A stretch of DNA of 11,986 bases, taken from Prochlorococcus sp. AG-315-I14 (GTDB taxonomy: Bacteria; Cyanobacteriota; Cyanobacteriia; PCC-6307; Cyanobiaceae). The DNA lies in NCBI GenBank assembly GCA_003283665.1, contig QBWF01000019.1, positions 1 to 11,986 on the forward strand, written 5' to 3'. The notes under the pieces are model-generated. The model saw only the letters and a list, made by a program, of their open reading frames with translations, made no database searches and was not told the origin of the DNA. Both the position numbers and the translations under genes were made by a program. Numbering within the stretch: position 1 is the first letter of the stretch; each line of letters opens with the position of its first letter. Of this stretch, positions 1 to 11,475 are shown piece by piece.

Positions 1-638
1 GCAAATATATTAGATTGCCTGCTATTGAAATTCTTGGTTCATCTGTTTCGTAAAATGGATAAACACAATGTCTTAATTTAGCAGGAAAGAAAAGCATATT
101 CCCCTCAAGTTTCGGTGACATCTTATATGCAATATTATTAACTTCTCCAAGGGTATCAATATATTCAAATTCAAAATTACCTGCTTTCTTCTCTCCTTCA
201 CTAATATCAATAAATTGTGGTAATTTGTGTTGAGATTCCCAATCATAAGGAATCTTCATCCAAATAGCAAAAGAATAGACACCAGAGTGATCATGATAAG
301 GGTTAAATTCTGTCTTATATTGATAGTTAACCCAAAGTTCATTTAATATCAATTTACTTTTAGGTCCCAATAATGTATTTTGAGTGATAGGGTCTCCTTT
401 TATAGAACTATTTTTACGATAAAAATTTATTAAAGGGACACAAACTGATTTATAAAAAAAAATAATCAATATCATCAAGAGAAAGACTTTGAGAAATATT
501 ACCTGCTAATTTATTACTAACATTCATATTTTTCGTTTTTGCAATATCAATAATCTTCCACAAATAATCAATAATTTCTTGGTCCAGTTTTACTTGCAGA
601 AAACCATTAATTGGACGAGATATATTTTTAACTTCCAT
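1..638 (-). pseudogene. 2OG-Fe(II) oxygenase (TIGR02466/PF13759-like), frameshifted, cut by the window edge
   Basis: Reading from ATG at 638, the frame ends after 62 codons at a TAA just past a run of nine T's (plus-strand A's at 454-462). Dropping one T restores an open frame to base 2, giving about 212 residues, close to the roughly 200 usual for this family. The restored protein has candidate iron ligands in NPYHDHSG (H115, H117), followed by VYSFAIWMKIPY. Near the end it has the distal His (RHCVYPF, H190) and the 2-oxoglutarate-binding Arg 12 residues later (RISIAGN, R202). Family members are presumed Fe(II)/2-oxoglutarate hydroxylases and are common in cyanophages and phage-derived islands; the substrate is unknown. 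The coding sequence beyond the shift is otherwise clean, so the break is recent, a sequencing artefact, or tolerated by slippage. The C-terminus runs off the left edge. Confidence 0.8.
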
Positions 639-687
639 TGCTTATTAAAATGCCAAGGAAAATAAACTCAAAGTAAAAATACAACCT

Positions 688-709
688 ATTGCCTAAACAT
701 TGCCTAAAC
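688..709. repeat. 11-bp perfect tandem repeat, two copies, upstream of the oxygenase
   Basis: The unit ATTGCCTAAAC occurs twice back to back (688-698 and 699-709). Read on the minus strand it is GTTTAGGC plus AAT, twice, which is an 8+3 spacing of one helical turn. It lies 50-71 bp upstream of the oxygenase ATG. The geometry resembles direct-repeat sites of OmpR/PhoB-type regulators, but the sequence does not match the cyanobacterial Pho box (CTTAACCT-like). The regulatory role is inference. Confidence 0.6.
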
Positions 710-1340
710 ATCTTATACTGTTGTAATATGTGAATTCAAAACGACTGCTATAATTGACTTTCCAGGAGTGTACTTTGACCAATGCATTCATGTCCTGAAA
801 ATAAATTAGTCTTGATATAACTCGAGTTAGGGTGTAAAAAAAGTTGGGCTGAGCAGGCATCCCAGAAGGATATACAGAAGTAGTCCAAAGAGAATAACCA
901 GAAGAATACCAACTCAAAAAAAGTATATAGCTAATAGAAATCCCCTTATATGATTAATTAACTGGGTGACTAGCCAAGAACACAGCGAACAAGACGAGGG
1001 AGGGGATTAAGTAGAAATACCTATAACCCTTGCAACGGAAAAAGAAATGAAGTTTTTCTGGCATAAACAAAATAATAGAAAAGCATGTAGGACGAATCAA
1101 TTATTATACAAAACTAAAAGAGAGATTCTTCTATATAAAATCAAATTAATCTATTAGATTGCTCATCAGAGCATGAAAAGGGAATAATTGCGAACTAAGG
1201 AATCTAAATTTAAGCCAAAATTATATTTTATATTTTTTCTATATTACTTTATTGATAGATTTAAGCCATCCGATGAAATAAGATACCTTTCAAATGCCAT
1301 ACTTCCCCTTGTCCCAGACGGGAAGAACAAACGTACCAAT
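710..1340. other. Intergenic stretch with no convincing gene; left junction region of the mobile element
   Basis: No ORF here looks like a real protein. A TTG-started 74-codon frame (917 to 693, minus), a 36-codon plus frame at 1047-1157 and a TTG-started 60-codon plus frame at 1188-1370 are present but lack clear ribosome-binding sites or recognisable motifs. Structure worth noting: AATCCCCT (939-946) and AGGGGATT (1001-1008) form an 8-bp inverted repeat around a comparatively GC-rich stretch, and CTTCCC (1302-1307) can pair with GGGAAG (1320-1325). The left end of the element probably lies in this interval. I found neither a tRNA gene nor an att repeat. Confidence 0.5.
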
Positions 1341-1390: not shown

Positions 1391-2032
1391 ATGTCCATAA
1401 CGCCAGAAGTCATAGATATACCACTAGTCAGTCTATCGAATGCAACGGTTAAGGGGATGGATAGCTGGGCGGTAGAGGCGATGGAAGAATCCGTGGGTGA
1501 CATTAACGAACACCTGGGGAGAGCAGGCGCCTCACTTCGCTACGTGGCGTTACAGCTGACCGAAATCAAGAAAAACGTCAAACCGGGGAACTGGAAGGCT
1601 TTTCTTGAGTCAGGAGCCCTGGCCTGCTCTCCCAAGTATGCGACAGATCTAGTAGCTGCTCATACCAAATGGCTAGCGAATGCCGATGTGGAGGATTCTG
1701 TGATCGCACAATTAACCCCTCGCTCGCTGGCAGCCATGGCCAATGCTTCCGACACCGAGAGACAGAAGGTCTTTAATCTTATAGAAAATGCCGGAGCAAA
1801 GGACTCAATCACAGAGGCAAAAGTAAGAGCTGCAATGAAAGGCAAAAAGATATCAAAAAAGAAAGCACCTATAACTATCGACGAAAGATTAGAAAGAGAA
1901 ATTAATGCTAACGCTGAGCTAATGGACATGAACAAAAGGCTAAGAGAGGAGAATGCAAATCTAAGAAAGCAGCTCTCAAGTAAGTTGCTTGAGAACAACA
2001 AATGGGAGTTAAAGCAAAAAAGAATCAGTTAG
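1391..2032 (+). CDS. Hypothetical coiled-coil protein, first gene of the element, possible DNA-binding or regulatory role
   Basis: I do not recognise this 213-residue protein with certainty. The middle (GNWKAFLESG, then AHTKWLA, then LTPRSLAAMA) is helical and ends in a segment reminiscent of the helix-turn-helix end of ParB/KorB or DUF3102-type proteins. A Lys-rich linker (KGKKISKKK) precedes a C-terminal coiled coil of about 45 residues (ERLEREI...RLREENANLRKQL). A DNA-binding or partition-like role is inference. The frame is open from a TTG at 1367. I prefer ATG 1391 because the resulting N-terminus, MSITPEVID, matches that of the next gene (MSIDPEVIS); neither start has a clear Shine-Dalgarno. 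The first 400 bp are much GC-richer than the rest of the window, suggesting origin in a higher-GC picocyanobacterium or its phage. Confidence 0.75.
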   Translation: MSITPEVIDIPLVSLSNATVKGMDSWAVEAMEESVGDINEHLGRAGASLRYVALQLTEIKKNVKPGNWKAFLESGALACSPKYATDLVAAHTKWLANADVEDSVIAQLTPRSLAAMANASDTERQKVFNLIENAGAKDSITEAKVRAAMKGKKISKKKAPITIDERLEREINANAELMDMNKRLREENANLRKQLSSKLLENNKWELKQKRIS

Positions 2033-2068
2033 GCAATTAAACCCATCACAACTATTCTCTAAAAGCAT

Positions 2069-2269
2069 ATGTCTATTGATCCCGAAGTGATTTCTTCTTC
2101 TAGCTCGCAAAGCAAGAAATCAGTCAGAAGTTATCCCAAATGGGCTATCTATTGGTTAGGTGGTATTGGTGCCTTCATAGCAGTCAATCTAGTTAAGTCG
2201 TTAATACCAGTACTAATCATGGCCATCCTGATCGCTTTTATATGGTCTCAAGCAACTAAACCTTCATGA
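2069..2269 (+). CDS. Small membrane protein, unknown function
   Basis: This 66-residue protein has a Ser-rich hydrophilic head (residues 9-20) and two hydrophobic stretches (about 27-41 and 44-60) that could form a helical hairpin in the membrane. Its first nine residues, MSIDPEVIS, match seven of nine with those of the preceding gene although the codons differ. It starts 36 bp after that gene and its TGA overlaps the next ATG (ATGA), so the two are probably translationally coupled. A phage-style membrane role such as a holin is possible from size and topology, but nothing specific supports it. Confidence 0.65.
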   Translation: MSIDPEVISSSSSQSKKSVRSYPKWAIYWLGGIGAFIAVNLVKSLIPVLIMAILIAFIWSQATKPS

Positions 2270-2451
2270 GCATGACTAATACCGATTCCTTCTACGCCTT
2301 CCTCCAGTATCTAGCTGTCAATAAAGACGGTTCTTTTGACTACGACATAAAGAATAGGATGCTAGATAAATATAAGAAAAAGATTGGATCTAAAGAAATA
2401 CACAGAAGAGCATTAAGTATCTTCAATCCCAACAAAAAGGAGGTTGCCTAA
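2266..2451 (+). CDS. Small basic hypothetical protein
   Basis: A 61-residue soluble, Lys/Arg-rich protein (SFYAFLQYLAV, then DYDIKNRMLDKYKKKIG) with no membrane segment or family I recognise. The ATG overlaps the previous stop by four bases, and its TAA shares one base with the next ATG (TAATG). A second in-frame ATG lies two codons in. The predicted helical, charged character would suit a small nucleic-acid- or protein-binding factor, but that is a guess. Confidence 0.6.
   Translation: MSMTNTDSFYAFLQYLAVNKDGSFDYDIKNRMLDKYKKKIGSKEIHRRALSIFNPNKKEVA
2437..2443 (+). promoter_or_regulatory. Perfect Shine-Dalgarno for the 55-residue gene at 2451
   Basis: AAGGAGG lies seven bases before ATG 2451, inside the end of the preceding gene. 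It is the strongest ribosome-binding site in the cassette and decides the start of the short gene that follows. Confidence 0.75.
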
Positions 2452-2618
2452 TGAGTAAAGAAAGCAATCTAAGAAATGAATCCATACATCTTTACGACCC
2501 TATCAAAGAGGGATGGAGTTCATATGACATTAATTACATAAATGCATTAAGAAAAAAGAGGAAGCTGAAAAGTGAATACGAAGTAAATAAGACACAAAAA
2601 GAAAGGTATGCAGCATGA
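2451..2618 (+). CDS. 55-residue hypothetical protein with canonical ribosome-binding site
   Basis: This short gene reads MSKESNLRNESIHLYD at its start, then WSSYDINYINALRKKRK and a charged tail ending RYAA. It has no membrane segment and matches no family I know. Three things support it as real: the AAGGAGG seven bases upstream, the TAATG junction with the previous gene, and the ATGA overlap (2615-2618) with the next one. It fills what would otherwise be a 163-bp hole in an operon with no other gap above 36 bp before 4210. Confidence 0.7.
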   Translation: MSKESNLRNESIHLYDPIKEGWSSYDINYINALRKKRKLKSEYEVNKTQKERYAA

Positions 2619-2926
2619 TTCCATTCATTAGAAGCATTGAAGAACTAAAGGTTATGACTGATTCCAGGTCAGAGGTAGTCCATAGAAAACATAACAGAGA
2701 TATTGCTGAGGAAAGTGGACAAAGAAAAAGGTACTTACATTCAATAAGAGAAGAGAAAGTAGGTCTTCCAGGGATACCTAATAGGAATAGATTGAACTGG
2801 GTTAAAGGTAAAAAGGCTATTATTAAATTCCTTGATCATTTAGATTATAATAATCAAAATATTTCGTCTTATGAGATAACACTAATGAAAAAACAAGAGC
2901 AAAATCAATACCATGACGCTGCATAA
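2615..2926 (+). CDS. Hypothetical basic protein
   Basis: A 103-residue hydrophilic protein, rich in Lys, Arg and Glu, with no membrane segment. Segments such as SEVVHRKHNRDIAEESGQRK and LNWVKGKKAIIKFLDHL suggest helices and a possible nucleic-acid-binding surface, but I recognise no domain. The ATG overlaps the previous stop (ATGA), with a weak AAAGG eight bases upstream; the next gene begins two bases after its stop. The function is unknown. Confidence 0.6.
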   Translation: MIPFIRSIEELKVMTDSRSEVVHRKHNRDIAEESGQRKRYLHSIREEKVGLPGIPNRNRLNWVKGKKAIIKFLDHLDYNNQNISSYEITLMKKQEQNQYHDAA

Positions 2927-2928
2927 CT

Positions 2929-3258
2929 ATGAATAGAATAAAATATAAAAGTCTTTTAGAGTATTTATCTCTAACTCTAGTTTTATCCTATTTAATTTTC
3001 CATAATGTATTAATGATAATTAGTGGAATGATTATTGCCTTATATTGCACAGGTAAAGAAGGTGAATTACAAGTCTTTAAAATTAATAGGCGAAAGAAAG
3101 AAGTTAAGTTTAAATCTAAAAGAGAAACAAAGGAAAAAATCCATAAACAACAAGTTTTTCAAATCTGTTCTGAATCTGATCTGAAGCTAATTCAAAATAT
3201 TGAGGAGTTTGGATTCATACCTTCTATCAATACTGTTGACAAAGAGATTGATTTATGA
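2929..3258 (+). CDS. Membrane-anchored hypothetical protein with basic cytoplasmic tail
   Basis: This 109-residue protein has two hydrophobic helices (about 9-25 and 27-41), then a strongly basic stretch (NRRKKEVKFKSKRETKEKIH), then a neutral to acidic C-terminal part. The positive segment after the helices suggests that both termini face the cytoplasm. It starts two bases after the previous stop without an obvious Shine-Dalgarno, so translation is probably coupled, and its stop overlaps the next ATG. From this gene on the DNA becomes markedly more AT-rich. I recognise no family. Confidence 0.6.
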   Translation: MNRIKYKSLLEYLSLTLVLSYLIFHNVLMIISGMIIALYCTGKEGELQVFKINRRKKEVKFKSKRETKEKIHKQQVFQICSESDLKLIQNIEEFGFIPSINTVDKEIDL

Positions 3259-3452
3259 TTATGAATATAAATACATTCTTGCTTGGTCTAATAGTAATTT
3301 CTACTTACCTTAATCTATATCTTAATTATAATAAATATAAAAAGTCTAAAAAGAGGACCGAATTGCCGATTTCATCAAAGCAATGGAATAAGTTAATACA
3401 AGATAATAGCTTTAAATCATGGTTAGCAAATAAGGAAAGACTAAAAAAATGA
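3255..3452 (+). CDS. Small single-pass membrane protein
   Basis: This 65-residue protein has one hydrophobic helix near the N-terminus (about 5-23) followed by a basic tail (YNKYKKSKKRTELP) and a short amphipathic end (KQWNKLIQDN, then FKSWLANKERLKK). The topology is probably N-out, C-in by the positive-inside rule. ATGA overlaps join it to both neighbours. No domain is recognisable; the C-terminal part could be a small helical interaction module. Confidence 0.6.
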   Translation: MIMNINTFLLGLIVISTYLNLYLNYNKYKKSKKRTELPISSKQWNKLIQDNSFKSWLANKERLKK

Positions 3453-3640
3453 AAAAGATACTATTAATATATATTATATTTATTCTTTACTATCCTATTA
3501 AAGGATTTACTCAACCAATTAAAATACCTGTTATTCCTTATAATAAGAGAACTAATTCAGTTCCAATTAGAATTCACAATAAATGTAAATCTATTGTTAA
3601 TTACTCTAATTGTGTTAAAAGGTATGTAAGGAATTATTAA
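3449..3640 (+). CDS. Exported, highly cationic small protein with one Cys pair
   Basis: The 63-residue product opens with MKK and a hydrophobic core (residues 4-17) like a Sec signal peptide, with plausible cleavage near 19-22 (GFTQ). The rest, about 41 residues, has nine Lys/Arg, one His and no Asp or Glu; the whole protein contains no acidic residue. Two cysteines (C46 and C55, spaced C-x8-C) could form a disulfide after export. This profile resembles secreted antimicrobial or bacteriocin-like peptides, but there is no homology I can name. The start overlaps the previous stop (ATGA), with AAGGA about 12 bases upstream; the next gene follows after 7 bp. Confidence 0.6.
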   Translation: MKKILLIYIIFILYYPIKGFTQPIKIPVIPYNKRTNSVPIRIHNKCKSIVNYSNCVKRYVRNY

Positions 3641-3647
3641 TTAGGAA

Positions 3648-3872
3648 ATGAAAAAGATAAATACCAAAAGAGTTTTACGTACCTTATTTATACTTATTAG
3701 TTTTATAATAATTTATATATTTTGTATTTCTATTGCAAATAATCTTATATTAACTCCTATTATTAATTATCTTGCTGATTCTGAAACATCCAGGATATTT
3801 GTTTCTTGTCTTTTAGGCTGGTTTGGCATGTCGACACTATTCAATCTAATTGTAGAAGGTAAGAGCAAATGA
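3648..3872 (+). CDS. Small two-helix membrane protein
   Basis: This 74-residue protein has a basic N-terminus (KKINTKRVLR), a long hydrophobic helix (about 10-35), a polar link (LADSETSR) and a second helix (about 50-66, FVSCLLGWFGMSTLFNLIV). An AGGA lies a few bases before the ATG. Coupled by ATGA to the next gene and directly downstream of the exported cationic peptide, it could serve as a self-protection or export partner; that rests on position only. Confidence 0.6.
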   Translation: MKKINTKRVLRTLFILISFIIIYIFCISIANNLILTPIINYLADSETSRIFVSCLLGWFGMSTLFNLIVEGKSK

Positions 3873-4210
3873 GATTAGTTATCCCTTTCTTTCAAGATAT
3901 TGACGACTACTTTACTGTAAGAACTAAAACGATATCTCGAATAGCTATTGCTGACATAATGGATGATAATATGTTAATTAGGTGGTATAGCAAAATACTT
4001 GATAGTTCTTTATTAGTAAAAGATTTAAAAGGATTTGGTTATTTCGAATCAAAATATACTCATGGTTATGTTCAGGCTACTTTTCGTTTTAATAAGATTG
4101 CTATAGAGGTCATTAGGTTTCAATTGGAATTACGAGGTCTCAATCCTAAAAATACTAGAGATATTTCTATCATTGAAAAAAGAATAGGAAATTTTGGAGA
4201 TAATAAATAA
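3869..4210 (+). CDS. Hypothetical soluble protein
   Basis: A 113-residue protein of mixed alpha/beta character with no membrane segment. Distinct stretches are FFQDIDDYFTVRTKTI, IRWYSKILDSSLL, and an aromatic-rich block YFESKYTHGYVQATFRF that may be a beta-hairpin. I recognise no family. It is the last well-supported gene of the chain; its ATG overlaps the previous stop. The codons for KNTRD near its end share a 15-bp match with DNA just downstream, suggesting local duplication or decay at the 3' end of the operon. Confidence 0.55.
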   Translation: MRLVIPFFQDIDDYFTVRTKTISRIAIADIMDDNMLIRWYSKILDSSLLVKDLKGFGYFESKYTHGYVQATFRFNKIAIEVIRFQLELRGLNPKNTRDISIIEKRIGNFGDNK

Positions 4211-4244
4211 AAAGATAGGAGGATCGAATAAAATACTAGAGATA
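4149..4244 (+). repeat. 15-bp direct repeat flanking an orphan Shine-Dalgarno
   Basis: AAAATACTAGAGATA occurs at 4149-4163 (inside the end of the upstream gene) and again at 4230-4244. Between the copies, at 4217-4222, is a perfect AGGAGG with no ATG, GTG or TTG at usable distance. This looks like the remains of a rearranged gene start. Confidence 0.5.
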
Positions 4245-4272
4245 AACTAGCTATCGCTCAGGAATATAAAAA

Positions 4273-4404
4273 ATGGATTATTTTGAAATTTGTAATGACT
4301 TTGAAAAACAAGAGATATTAATTATAAATGAATATACTTTTAATAAATTCAGGCCTATAATTCAATTATCTCAATTGATTTTAAGGATAAAGCTTTATTA
4401 TTAA
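4273..4404 (+). CDS. Possible 43-residue protein or gene remnant at the end of the cassette
   Basis: ATG at 4273 opens a 43-codon frame (MDYFEICNDF..., then NEYTFNKFRPIIQL) ending at TAA 4402-4404, with CAGGA about ten bases upstream. Composition is like that of its AT-rich neighbours. It is separated from the preceding gene by 62 bp that contain a broken-looking gene start, so it may be the remnant of a longer gene. No family is recognisable. Confidence 0.3.
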   Translation: MDYFEICNDFEKQEILIINEYTFNKFRPIIQLSQLILRIKLYY

Positions 4405-4478
4405 AATCAACTAGTTCTTGATAAGACTATATTAATTTGTTTAGGATTTATGATTTCTAGAATTATATTTGTTTAAAT

Positions 4479-5813
4479 TTATTTAAAATTTAATCTATCA
4501 TAATATCGCTGAAGAAAATCATAAGAATTTCCGGTAAGCTTTCTAATTAGATAAATGTCCTTACCCTCATTAATTTGATTAGTGATATATGAGCTTCGAA
4601 GAGAATATAAAGTATAAGGTTGGTCAGGTTTAGAACCTTTTAACAAGTGAGATAAGTTAACTCTCATTTGATCCCACACTCTACTTATCTGAGAGTAAGG
4701 ATAAGGACGTGATGTAAATGGATTAATGAAGATATAATCCTTATCAGTTATCTTAACTAAACCATTCTCATTCCTAAATTTATCACTATAAGCCCTCCAT
4801 TTTATAAAGGAATCTCCTATATTAGTAGTTATTTTTCTAGTAGTATCTGTCCTAGAATCTATTATATATAAAACTGCCTCAGAAAAATCATTCTTTTTAC
4901 TTTTAGCCGTCTCATTATAATGAGGATTAAGCTCTACATCACACCACCTTAATCCCCCTTTAATACTCTCATTAAGAGTAAAATCACCATTTTTATTTAT
5001 CACTACTCCCTTTTCTATTAATCCTAATAGTTCCTTAGGCCTAGTTCCAGATTTATAAGAAACAAAAACAAATTCTCTCATCATCTGACGAAAGTATATA
5101 GTACGAATCTTTTTATTATTATTTATTTCCTTAGAGTATTTATCAAAATAATTATAGATAAGTGGCCAATCATCCTTTAAAGATATTGGTGGATTAGGAT
5201 CTGATTGATCTTGCTTAATTATTATTGGGCTTATGGAAGGTACTTCTTTTGCATAACCATTAGGAATTAAAAAGTTTTTATACCATTCCTTTAACCTAAC
5301 TAGATCCTTTCTGACAGTAGAAATCTTAGGAAAAGTATTTATCTTACTATTATCTATAATCTTCCAAGACTTATTGATTCTCCATTCATTGAAATCAAGA
5401 AAAGTTTCACTTTTAATATCAGATATCTTAGTTAATTTTTTTTCATTCTTTAAATATACTTGAATAATTGATCTTAATGAGGTTCTAATGCCTCGAACGG
5501 TTGCAATGGTGATTTTCCCATTGGATTGTCTTTTCTCTTTTATACTTATCCATTGATCTATTAAATCTTCAATTAGTGCATTTTTGGGATTCTCTTCTTC
5601 TATAATATCAAAATATAAATCTTCACCTCTCCTAGCAGCAATAGCTAAGTCAGGTTCATTCAATTTTCTATACTTATATAGCTTTGTACCTACTTTTAAT
5701 TGTCGATACTGCCAAAGTTCTGGCTCTTTTTCATAGCAAATAATACTAGCTCTTCCACCAAGGATCTTACGAATCTTTTTATTTCCAAACTCATCGACCG
5801 CTATCTTAGGCAT
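4479..5813 (-). CDS. Tyrosine recombinase (phage-type integrase)
   Basis: The 444-residue protein has an N-terminal part (1-75) like an arm-site-binding domain (KLYKYRKLNEPDLAIAARRG), a core-binding helical domain (about 76-190, LIDQWISIKEKRQSNGK) and a catalytic domain from about 215. Box I holds Arg258 (SGTRPKELLGL), a likely catalytic Lys is at 304-306 (AKSKK), and box II holds Arg406 (LYSLRSSYIT). The nucleophile is Tyr438 (QRYYDR), nine residues after position 429, which is the usual spacing. The two histidine positions are Tyr403 (HxxR motif) and Asn429 (usually G-H-S), an atypical active site. It would integrate and excise the element. It faces the cargo operon, with its start close to the presumed right end; directly repeated sequence lies 38-59 bp upstream. 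Confidence 0.9.
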   Translation of the reverse strand: MPKIAVDEFGNKKIRKILGGRASIICYEKEPELWQYRQLKVGTKLYKYRKLNEPDLAIAARRGEDLYFDIIEEENPKNALIEDLIDQWISIKEKRQSNGKITIATVRGIRTSLRSIIQVYLKNEKKLTKISDIKSETFLDFNEWRINKSWKIIDNSKINTFPKISTVRKDLVRLKEWYKNFLIPNGYAKEVPSISPIIIKQDQSDPNPPISLKDDWPLIYNYFDKYSKEINNNKKIRTIYFRQMMREFVFVSYKSGTRPKELLGLIEKGVVINKNGDFTLNESIKGGLRWCDVELNPHYNETAKSKKNDFSEAVLYIIDSRTDTTRKITTNIGDSFIKWRAYSDKFRNENGLVKITDKDYIFINPFTSRPYPYSQISRVWDQMRVNLSHLLKGSKPDQPYTLYSLRSSYITNQINEGKDIYLIRKLTGNSYDFLQRYYDRLNFK

Positions 5814-5872: not shown

Positions 5873-6291
5873 GCTAGGTAATTGCCAGGCCAATAGGGCA
5901 TTATATACTTCTTTTTATAAGTACATTTTATTATATGGGCTACTGCTGTAATATTTTCAAACAATTTATACAAGCAAAAACGTGTAAGAAACAATTATAT
6001 TCCTTATATTATTCTTACTATATGAAAGTTCTTAGGCGATTATTTTCTTTTAAGAAGTTAAATATAATAAAATAATGCTTATATATTTACTTTCTATAGT
6101 AATAAATATATCAAAATTTAAAATACAGAAATTAGTTGATTTAATTAAACAATAATATGCTTAAAAAGAATACTTAGATATTGCTAATGGTAGATACTTT
6201 TATTGAGGGACTATAAGGCATAATTATCAGAGCACATTTAAGTAAAGGGGATAGATATTTTTGATTAAGTTGCAAAACAAAAACTTGAGAA
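5873..6291. other. AT-rich intergenic region; no gene seen
   Basis: No reading frame of credible length and no tRNA fold were found. The start contains an imperfect palindrome (ATTGCCAGGCCAAT, 5881-5894) and a weak TACTT/AAGTA inverted pair just after it. If the element ends to the right of its integrase, its right attachment site should be here, but I saw no long match to the left side. Confidence 0.4.
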
Positions 6292-6319
6292 ATGAAATAG
6301 AAATTAATTACTATTTCAT
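6292..6319 (-). terminator. AT-rich hairpin after the peroxiredoxin gene
   Basis: On the minus strand ATGAAATAG (including the stop codon, 6319-6311) pairs perfectly with CTATTTCAT (6300-6292) across a 10-base loop. T-rich sequence (TTTTTGTTTT) follows about ten bases later. The stem has few G-C pairs, so termination may be weak. Confidence 0.4.
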
Positions 6320-6766
6320 AATTTCACCAAGCACTCTTAAAGCCTCATTAACATGTGCAGGACCATTTAGAAGATCTTTAAAGATATGACGTATTACCCC
6401 TTTAGAATCAACTATATAAGTAACTCTTCCATCCAATATACCTAGCACTTTAGGAACTCCAAAAATACTTCTCAATGAATTATCTTTATCACAGAGAAGA
6501 GGAAAAGGTAGCTTATTTTTATCTGCAAAAGATCTATGACTAGCCTCATCATCTCTACTTACTCCCCAAACTTCAGCTCCAAACAATTTAAATAAATCAT
6601 ATTTATCACGAAATCCACAATTCTCTGCTGTACATCCAGGAGTGTCATCCTTGGGATAGAAAAATAAAACTAATGGCTTTCCCATAGCTTGCTTGTTAGT
6701 CCTAATTACACCCAATTGATCAGATAATGAAAAGTTTGGTATTTCATCTCCCAATTTCAAAGCCAT
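6311..6766 (-). CDS. bcp: Peroxiredoxin of the PrxQ/Bcp family (thiol peroxidase)
   Basis: The 151-residue length is typical of Bcp/PrxQ. The active site PGCTAENCGFRD holds the peroxidatic Cys45 and a resolving Cys50 five residues later, the same arrangement as E. coli Bcp. The preceding FFYPKDDTPGCT block and the downstream GVSRDD and PFPLLCDKD blocks are family hallmarks. It reduces H2O2 and organic hydroperoxides at the expense of thioredoxin, a soluble defence important in photosynthetic cells. The start ATG (MALKLGD) gives a standard N-terminus. It is transcribed away from the TPR-methyltransferase gene with a TATAAT box upstream and appears to be a single-gene unit. Confidence 0.95.
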   Translation of the reverse strand: MALKLGDEIPNFSLSDQLGVIRTNKQAMGKPLVLFFYPKDDTPGCTAENCGFRDKYDLFKLFGAEVWGVSRDDEASHRSFADKNKLPFPLLCDKDNSLRSIFGVPKVLGILDGRVTYIVDSKGVIRHIFKDLLNGPAHVNEALRVLGEIMK

Positions 6767-10581: not shown

Positions 10582-11016
10582 TCACCCAAAAGGATTTGTT
10601 CCTTTCAAAGGACCTACAAACAAAAATTCAATAATTGTTCCCATTATAGCGGCAGGAAAAACCCAAATAGACATAAATCTAATTCCCATAAATTTCATAC
10701 CTCCTTTCCCAGAGAAGGAATCTTTAGTCATGGTATAAACAGTTTCAGTATCAGTTACTTCGTAAGAATCACTAATACCCTTCTCATAGGGCCGAATAAA
10801 AACAATTTTACTTACAAAAAGATTTCTAATTGTATTAATAGCGATAATAGGCCAAACCCACATATAGAAAATACGACTGCCTAATCTATTACCATCTGAT
10901 TGTGGATTGCCCAAATCAATATTGATATTATCTTTTGGTAGTGCATCTTCAATTATTGAAGCAACCGCCTCTTGATTAGTTGTGAATTTAACTTGTGTAT
11001 TTTCAGAATCCATCAA
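10582..11016 (-). CDS. Membrane protein with an internal repeat, unknown function
   Basis: The 144-residue protein has a polar N-terminus (1-45), a hydrophobic segment (about 50-74), an acidic polar middle (77-105, YEVTDTETVY) and a second hydrophobic segment (about 113-135). The two hydrophobic parts share a pattern, WV[W/F]P then five residues then TI then LFV: residues 53-68 (WVWPIIAINTIRNLFV) and 118-134 (WVFPAAIMGTIIEFLFV, one residue longer). This suggests an ancient internal duplication. It ends GTNPFG. Two adjacent ATGs are possible starts. I know no family for it. Confidence 0.7.
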   Translation of the reverse strand: MMDSENTQVKFTTNQEAVASIIEDALPKDNINIDLGNPQSDGNRLGSRIFYMWVWPIIAINTIRNLFVSKIVFIRPYEKGISDSYEVTDTETVYTMTKDSFSGKGGMKFMGIRFMSIWVFPAAIMGTIIEFLFVGPLKGTNPFG

Positions 11017-11126
11017 AATCTTTAAATTTTAATGATTATAAGATGAATTCCTAATTTTTTGGTTTAAAGAAAAAATTAAATATTTATTGGTAACAAATTA
11101 AGATTTTTCGATTATTACCGAATAAT

Positions 11127-11162
11127 AAAAAAGACCCCTCTAAAAAAAAGCAGGTCTTTTTT
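11127..11162 (-). terminator. Rho-independent terminator of the PsbF-like gene
   Basis: AAAAAAGACC (11127-11136) and GGTCTTTTTT (11153-11162) form a 10-bp stem with a 16-base loop, giving a run of T's on the minus strand after the stem. It begins 20 bp past the stop at 11182. The symmetric A/T tails would let it work in both directions. Confidence 0.85.
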
Positions 11163-11181
11163 ATAAAATCTCAAAGATATA

Positions 11182-11475
11182 TTACGCGTTAATAACGCCT
11201 CTGCGTATGAATTGCATGGCAAAAATTGCTCCTAGAAAAAATACAGTCGGAATACCTAATGCATTCACAGCCAAAGTTCTAACAGTGAAAACTGGATATC
11301 CACCTGAAGGTCTTCCTTTATCTGCAACTATCGCGGTATCTTCCCAAACTTGTTCATTAACTACGGTGGGCCCATTATCCCAAACAAATACTCCCCATCT
11401 ACGTAACCAATAATCAGCAAAGGCAAGTGTAAAAATAAGTGGGCTTAGAACCAACAACAGTTTGAGTGTGTTCAT
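11182..11475 (-). CDS. PsbF-like (cytochrome b559 beta-like) membrane protein lacking the haem histidine
   Basis: The last 40 of 97 residues closely follow cytochrome b559 beta: YPVFTVR, then [17 protein letters not shown], then AMQFIRR, against the usual PsbF pattern YPIFTVRWLAVHxLAxPTVFFLG. The PsbF haem-ligating His is Asn71 here, and the preceding Trp is Thr67. The first 57 residues are extra: a hydrophobic helix or signal anchor (4-20), an aromatic stretch ([15 protein letters not shown]) and a Lys/Arg-flanked linker. Canonical PsbF is only about 40 residues, so this is a paralogue or fusion, probably in the thylakoid membrane, that cannot bind haem in the standard way. Photosystem assembly or association is inference. 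It has its own terminator and diverges from the gene at 11670. Confidence 0.75.

Follow-up and report, generated by a model that had tools for sequence, protein, structure and literature searches.

A small-gene cassette at the glyQ integration site of Prochlorococcus: a probable immobilised descendant of an integrative element

The stretch of DNA analysed here (hereafter the window) is the entire 11,986-bp contig QBWF01000019.1 of Prochlorococcus sp. AG-315-I14, in which a putative regulator gene (ORF1; ORF, open reading frame) and nine small, closely packed genes (g1–g9) run towards a single tyrosine recombinase. Comparison with related genomes makes it probable, in our judgement, that this cassette is an immobilised and partly domesticated descendant of an integrative element that targeted glyQ. 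We favour this reading because intact relatives at glyQ begin with a core and ORF1, continue through an RNA polymerase gene and end with an integrase and a second core; because ORF1, g3, g4 and g5 are collinear in a sister genus, under purifying selection and behind a conserved, unique dyad; and because the catalytic residues of the window's own integrase are altered and the window lacks a good right-hand core.

Sequence comparison indicates an integration hotspot in the opening codons of glyQ, recognisable by a core of 17–18 bp. Genome G078 has an element of 8.9 kb inserted between glyQ and the resident ORF1; when this genome is aligned with G132, which is without the element, each end falls at an 18-bp stretch, the start of glyQ. 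At this site AG-404-B19 has a 10.7-kb element, flanked by two identical cores of 17 bp. Both elements run from an ORF1 homologue through small genes and a phage-type RNA polymerase to an intact tyrosine integrase. At glyQ in G027 there is an integrase with two core-like copies 9.3 kb apart and no RNA polymerase match; G191 has an integrase with intact catalytic residues near glyQ, with the second core not found; and in G194 and G231 a core stands beside an integrase, the ORF of which in G194 ends before the catalytic Tyr. In the seven whole genomes searched, exact core matches occur solely at the glyQ locus (six genomes, one each), while the eight off-locus matches each have two mismatches.

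On its right flank the window has bcp, a TPR-methyltransferase, a PQ-loop protein and further genes, and at the best places this flank is about 67–80% identical in DNA to a Prochlorococcus sister genus. This sister genus is represented by 41 Prochlorococcus genomes, 39 of them with some match to the right flank; its named members are Prochlorococcus single-cell or similar assemblies, and we take it to be the low-light I group. Among the 26 of these genomes with glyQ on the contig, the gap between glyQ and ORF1 is 475–525 bp in 9 and larger in 17, the larger gaps holding an oxygenase gene (10/26) or other inserts or remnants (7/26). The window has its oxygenase gene and core arranged as in these relatives. 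In G010 three core-like copies stand in a row between glyQ and ORF1 (locus L170, positions 4337, 6488 and 9077, with 0, 3 and 4 mismatches), which suggests serial insertions. G062 has a 1.3-kb insert at glyQ (L201, 845–2186) with one 246-amino-acid ORF, near-identical flanking repeats of ~29 bp and no integrase seen.

The polymerase of the G078 element matches PF00940 (E-value 1.5e-36) and phrog_414 (E 1e-137), and that of AG-404-B19 is 51% identical to it. Polymerase matches are found in 37 of 400 family genomes, with E <1e-100 in 16. Nine of these 16 also have an integrase, picked up by one and the same alignment, no more than 10 kb from the polymerase, and in two more a neighbouring ORF matches PF00589, above the curated cut-off in G286 and just below it in G097. 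The sequence examined around the pairs of G101, G111, G233, G325 and G195 showed no glyQ, so the polymerase–integrase pair is a wider unit than the glyQ elements. The G101 pair occupies L139 7058–11658, next to a gene that is presumably ychF. The AG-404-B19 polymerase matches 2,560 phage records, the best 15 of the 2,560 being Synechococcus phages at 25.6–26.8% identity. At L138 6082–8517, a phage-type RNA polymerase within a small integrative element is ~26% identical to the nearest listed phage enzymes (cyanopodovirus-type, Synechococcus phages).

How much of such an element does the window retain? The left attachment (att) core, a copy of the first glyQ codons at 789–806 (forward strand), differs from the G132 core at 3 of 18 positions and is the best match to it in the window. 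With two differing places left open and three mismatches allowed it is the only match, and an exact one (shuffles average 0.94); positions 790–830 align at 83–91% with relatives that have an empty site. On the right, the interval from the integrase to bcp yielded no core, even at up to six mismatches of 18. There may be a relic, AAGTACAT at 5919–5926 (forward strand), noticed after the fact: it ends a 17-bp stretch (5910–5926) at +97 from the integrase start, and the right cores of three elements lie at +97 to +105 from their integrase starts, that of a fourth (G027) at +846. This octamer turns up in 0.16% of shuffles within 45 bp of that spot and in 2% anywhere in the gap, and 17% of shuffles match as well as the 10/17 seen at 5910–5926. 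Direct repeats at both ends are present in AG-404-B19 and G078, while the window shows the left core and, on the right, only a possible 8-bp relic.

The recombinase itself (4479–5813, reverse strand) belongs to the glyQ-site group by its phrog_1 match (E 5e-14), residue tables and tree, and lacks the C-terminal tail. Its catalytic Lys is replaced by Arg and its His by Asn; the integrases of AG-404-B19, G078 and G191 have intact catalytic residues. The Lys is kept in 51 of 55 aligned integrases, all four losses falling in the window's clade, and the His in 47 of 55. Five short integrases, including that of the window, are broken, each with a different set of losses; they group with P0060 in a single clade (support 0.98), joined to the AG-404-B19 group at a node with support of 0.40. 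Within this clade ORF1 is 82–88% and the integrase 64–70% identical, against 44% and 54% in the comparison with AG-404-B19; the faster-diverging of the two in the clade is thus the integrase, the reverse of what is seen with AG-404-B19. P0060 is intact at all six positions, which argues against an old shared loss, and it likewise ends right after the Tyr. In addition, Asn in place of the His also occurs in the otherwise intact P0088 and P0089; since it is not specific to the broken clade, our confidence is slightly lowered. Homologues of ORF1 and the integrase apparently share a contig twice (P0009/P0044 and P0005/P0045, the contigs being paired by length alone), and a search of the genome contigs with the window integrase alone gave no match. 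The original prediction is therefore supported in part: a mobile-element origin of the cassette is retained, with the integrase as part of it, homologues of ORF1 and the integrase lying between the same cores in AG-404-B19 and G078, but current mobility is unsupported.

Mobility could persist if the cassette were a small satellite excised in trans by the integrase of an intact relative. The left core is good, the sister-genus element of G078 has an intact-looking integrase, and the adjoining oxygenase gene, which has no integrase, varies in presence among relatives, with a second core in G168 and G013. Against this, the right core is a relic at best, and the cassette behaves in relatives as a resident under purifying selection with g3 and g4 beside ORF1 throughout (described below), so we consider a still mobile satellite quite improbable.

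A search with the ORF1 alignment gave 23 Prochlorococcus loci and matches in 40 of 400 family genomes. A resident ORF1 copy is present in 28 of the 41 sister-genus genomes; the other 13 have no ORF1 match, and for two of these, G257 and G264, the contig stops shortly beyond bcp. All 28 ORF1-bearing genomes have g3 and g4 beside ORF1 in the same order, and 27 have g5 and a gene of 64 amino acids (64-aa gene). The 4-bp ATGA overlap of g3/g4 is kept in 27/27 and the 2-bp gap of g4/g5 in 26/27. No integrase was found to the right of g5 in any of 27 relatives, the stretch read reaching bcp in 22. The median ratio of non-synonymous to synonymous substitution (dN/dS), rough because synonymous sites are near saturation, is 0.043 for ORF1, 0.096 for the 64-aa gene, 0.19 for g3, 0.23 for g4, 0.38 for g5 and 0.43 for a small gene between ORF1 and g3; the controls give 0.041 (glyQ), 0.020 (bcp) and 0.20 (TPR-methyltransferase). 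By these values purifying selection acts on ORF1 about as strongly as on glyQ, and the g3–g5 junctions, with overlap and gap kept in relatives, reflect more than chance.

No clean cassette-free site was seen in the 28 sister-genus genomes read (of 41; the window's own clade lies outside the sample). Outside the sister genus, 18 of 20 glyQ neighbourhoods have glyQ without cassette or integrase and with other genes between; ORF1 and g3–g5 occur in none of 20 such neighbourhoods, and this kind of integrase only in G027. Empty sites do exist, but for insertions adjoining the cassette, left of ORF1. The clean presence and absence expected in the original prediction was thus not seen for the cassette, and ORF1-g3-g4-g5 largely show the opposite outcome, an invariant order without an empty site, in the 28 of 41 sister-genus genomes read. 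Might these genes form an ordinary chromosomal operon that owes nothing to an element and lies beside the hotspot by chance? The fixed order in the sister genus and the widespread occurrence of g9 would agree with that. However, relatives of ORF1, g1, g8 and the 64-aa gene neighbour genes for an RNA polymerase or an integrase, and those members of the integrase tree whose place is known sit at glyQ or by its core, which makes an ordinary operon very improbable.

The window's element could also have entered separately from the sister-genus cassette. Its ORF1 is 41–50% identical to those of the sister genus, versus 89–92% for bcp, and the integrase and most of g6–g9 are seen at this place in the window only. 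(No ORF1 match above 50% identity was found in 399 genomes of the order, and no near-identical window flank in the genus draws.) The order and junctions of g3-g4-g5 are shared, however, as are a remnant of the 64-aa gene, the context of the left core and, on the right, a likely remnant of a DUF7222-like gene; we regard an independent insertion as unlikely.

In the window ORF1 spans 1391–2032 (forward strand); its likely ATG at 1391 is also where the region picked in the original prediction starts. Its structure model is all helical, with a putative helix-turn-helix domain and a C-terminal coiled coil, and the six top structural matches are ParB, Spo0J or SopB. In the model ORF1 thus resembles the DNA-binding domain of ParB/SopB; it presumably lacks the length to include the N-terminal domain usual in ParB. 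A dyad, GACGAATCGTC, lies ~50 bp before the ATG (1342–1352), with a single match in the window and none in 200 shuffles. It recurs 48–51 bp before ORF1 in AG-404-B19, the G078 element and G005, as in the window, and imperfectly in one G074 copy; at that place it is lacking in five of ten ORF1 upstream regions examined, for some of which start positions are only estimated. CGANTCG is found exactly at −45 in 23 of 25 sister-genus ORF1 copies with a located start, and the 19-bp dyad site occurs once per genome at one mismatch or fewer (7/7 genomes). The conserved dyad points to DNA binding by ORF1, which we call putative. The ORF1 model resembles the helix-turn-helix domain fold of ParB, SopB and Spo0J proteins; ORF1 differs from them in having one dedicated site per genome, and this single conserved site argues for a dedicated autoregulator over a partition system.

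Downstream, all nine genes and all eight junctions of the predicted cassette (2069–4210) were reproduced. Every start is ATG, g1/g2, g3/g4, g5/g6, g6/g7 and g8/g9 share 4-bp ATGA overlaps, g2/g3 is a 1-bp TAATG overlap, and g4/g5 and g7/g8 are separated by 2 and 7 bp. The convergence on a single tyrosine recombinase also stands, the cassette lying on the forward and the recombinase on the reverse strand, and the statement that at least five products are small membrane or exported proteins is a fair one: hydropathy (19-residue window, threshold 1.6) exceeds 1.6 in g1, g5, g6 and g8 and reaches 1.58 in g7. Pfam and PHROGs scans gave no convincing family for ORF1 or g1–g9 (g8 by Pfam only); of the window proteins, the recombinase was clearly recognised in such profile scans.

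The small membrane protein g1 (2069–2269; all cassette genes are on the forward strand) has homologues beside ORF1-type genes in G078, G019 and G014. The ORF pattern defines g2 (2266–2451; a single profile match, E 0.003) and also g7 (3449–3640), a small, possibly exported product without a homologue in the related loci examined by profile search and tblastn. Both g3 (2451–2618) and g4 (2615–2926; structure model poor, with a pLDDT score of 64) are the conserved genes described above, as is g5 (2929–3258), a membrane protein with a conserved C-terminal GFIP motif; in the one relative of 28 not showing g5 the stretch ends before it. For g6 (3255–3452), a small membrane protein by hydropathy, there is a single profile match (E 5e-8) in G019, to a g6-like frame on the reverse strand at L156 9–128, at the start of a contig and left of a remnant element there. 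When g2, g6, g7 and g8 were compared with related loci by tblastn (E ≤ 0.01), g8 alone matched. This membrane protein (3648–3872) has relatives adjoining RNA-polymerase fragments, at 45% identity in L124 (G014), 41% in L122 (G132) and 39% in G016, where it lies between g5 and the 64-aa gene. In the window g6–g9 fill that same slot, the 64-aa gene surviving as a frameshifted remnant (4232–4401, forward strand) recognised by DNA alignment and by two hidden Markov model pieces in different frames (E 2e-5 and 2e-3). From these comparisons g1, g8 and the 64-aa gene are assigned to the element family. The widespread marine protein g9 (3869–4210; 124 proteins among the matches listed, g9 itself included) is 76–77% identical to copies at distant chromosomal sites in G078, G152, G108 and G132 and was not found in G168; it was probably captured by the cassette, since it lies elsewhere in the chromosome in four of the five sister-genus genomes of the draw. 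The g9 family is highly conserved and marine, with one cluster of 1,366 member sequences and no Pfam domain listed.

On the left of the core, a 2OG-Fe(II) oxygenase cargo gene (2–638, reverse strand) is split into two ORFs (450–638, and 2–478, which is cut by the contig start and matches PF13759 at E 5e-9). The gene is undivided in G108, and its split in the window reflects a mutation or a sequencing error. Pieces of window 1–830 align at 71–78% to ten relatives, running through the core in G168, G108 and G013. On the right, the conserved neighbour bcp/AhpC-TSA (PF00578) lies at 6311–6766 (reverse strand), preceded by the possible remnant of a DUF7222-like gene, which is the gene left of bcp in relatives (6129–6233, forward strand; blastn 77% over 56 bp to G108, a similar match in G019, tblastn E 0.012). 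Genes of the far right flank (10582–11475) are found within 4 kb of glyQ in G026 and G082, and the whole intervening stretch is therefore variable. Window 11182–11475 encodes a 97-amino-acid protein, conserved in relatives, whose C-terminus matches cytochrome b559 (PF00283) and whose N-terminal half is unusual.

Tycheposons are tyrosine-recombinase elements of Prochlorococcus islands that integrate at tRNA genes. The window's element resembles them in recombinase type and host; however, the window contains no tRNA, 21 related loci contain two, neither at a junction, and it is into the 5' end of glyQ that integration takes place. The tycheposon label considered in the original prediction is dropped for want of a tRNA. 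Phage satellites carry capsid, terminase or packaging-hijack genes, no match to which was found among the window genes or the scanned proteins of the intact elements. Phage records gave no match for the element DNA or the window integrase. A packaged satellite found no support in IMG/VR either: five scans, which detect close relatives only, gave no match for the window integrase, for the alignments of ORF1 and the integrase, or for the polymerase and integrase of AG-404-B19.

In mechanism the element is best compared to the dusA islands, whose tyrosine recombinases share one target in the 5' end of a tRNA-related housekeeping gene and whose content is diverse, the integrase being the sole universal feature (PMC4482086). 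The target is of the same type, here glyQ and in picocyanobacterial hosts. Unlike the dusA islands as described there, the two best-defined intact elements bring along a phage-type RNA polymerase together with an ORF1 homologue, and the copy in the window seems to be immobilised. A preprint on language-model annotation describes a divergent tyrosine recombinase of Prochlorococcus and Synechococcus islands, typically by tRNA-Phe or tRNA-Cys and often near a small serine recombinase (PMC10187409). Both are island tyrosine recombinases and differ, by that description, in their siting. In the open-licence literature we found nothing joining glyQ, integrase and cyanobacteria, and no title or abstract describing the element; within that literature, and to the extent of our searches, both the hotspot at glyQ and the elements there that bear a polymerase appear to be new.

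We propose the following course of events. A tyrosine integrase would have inserted the ancestor into the first codons of glyQ, duplicating the 17–18 bp core, so that glyQ would keep its coding start. ORF1, as a ParB-like protein, may bind the upstream dyad and control a single translationally coupled operon from ORF1 to g9. The window integrase would no longer recombine, being either a relic or retained as a DNA-binding protein, and the small membrane proteins of the operon may now serve the host. That they regulate or limit related elements or phages is a loosely held guess, and a doubtful one. We are evenly divided on the wider proposal of an undescribed family of 9–11 kb glyQ-targeting elements, some encoding a single-subunit RNA polymerase of phage type themselves, next to a ParB-like regulator, which family was domesticated in Prochlorococcus by keeping the regulator and small membrane genes, the integrase being disabled independently in several lineages.

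If our reading is correct, it ties a conserved and unexplained gene cassette to a mobile ancestor, and names the glyQ start as a testable integration hotspot, other than a tRNA gene, in the ocean's most abundant phototroph. Intact relatives with a virus-type RNA polymerase still use the same glyQ site, and the existence of such small elements, with a T7-like RNA polymerase and no structural genes recognised among the proteins scanned, invites one to ask how such elements are expressed and how they spread.

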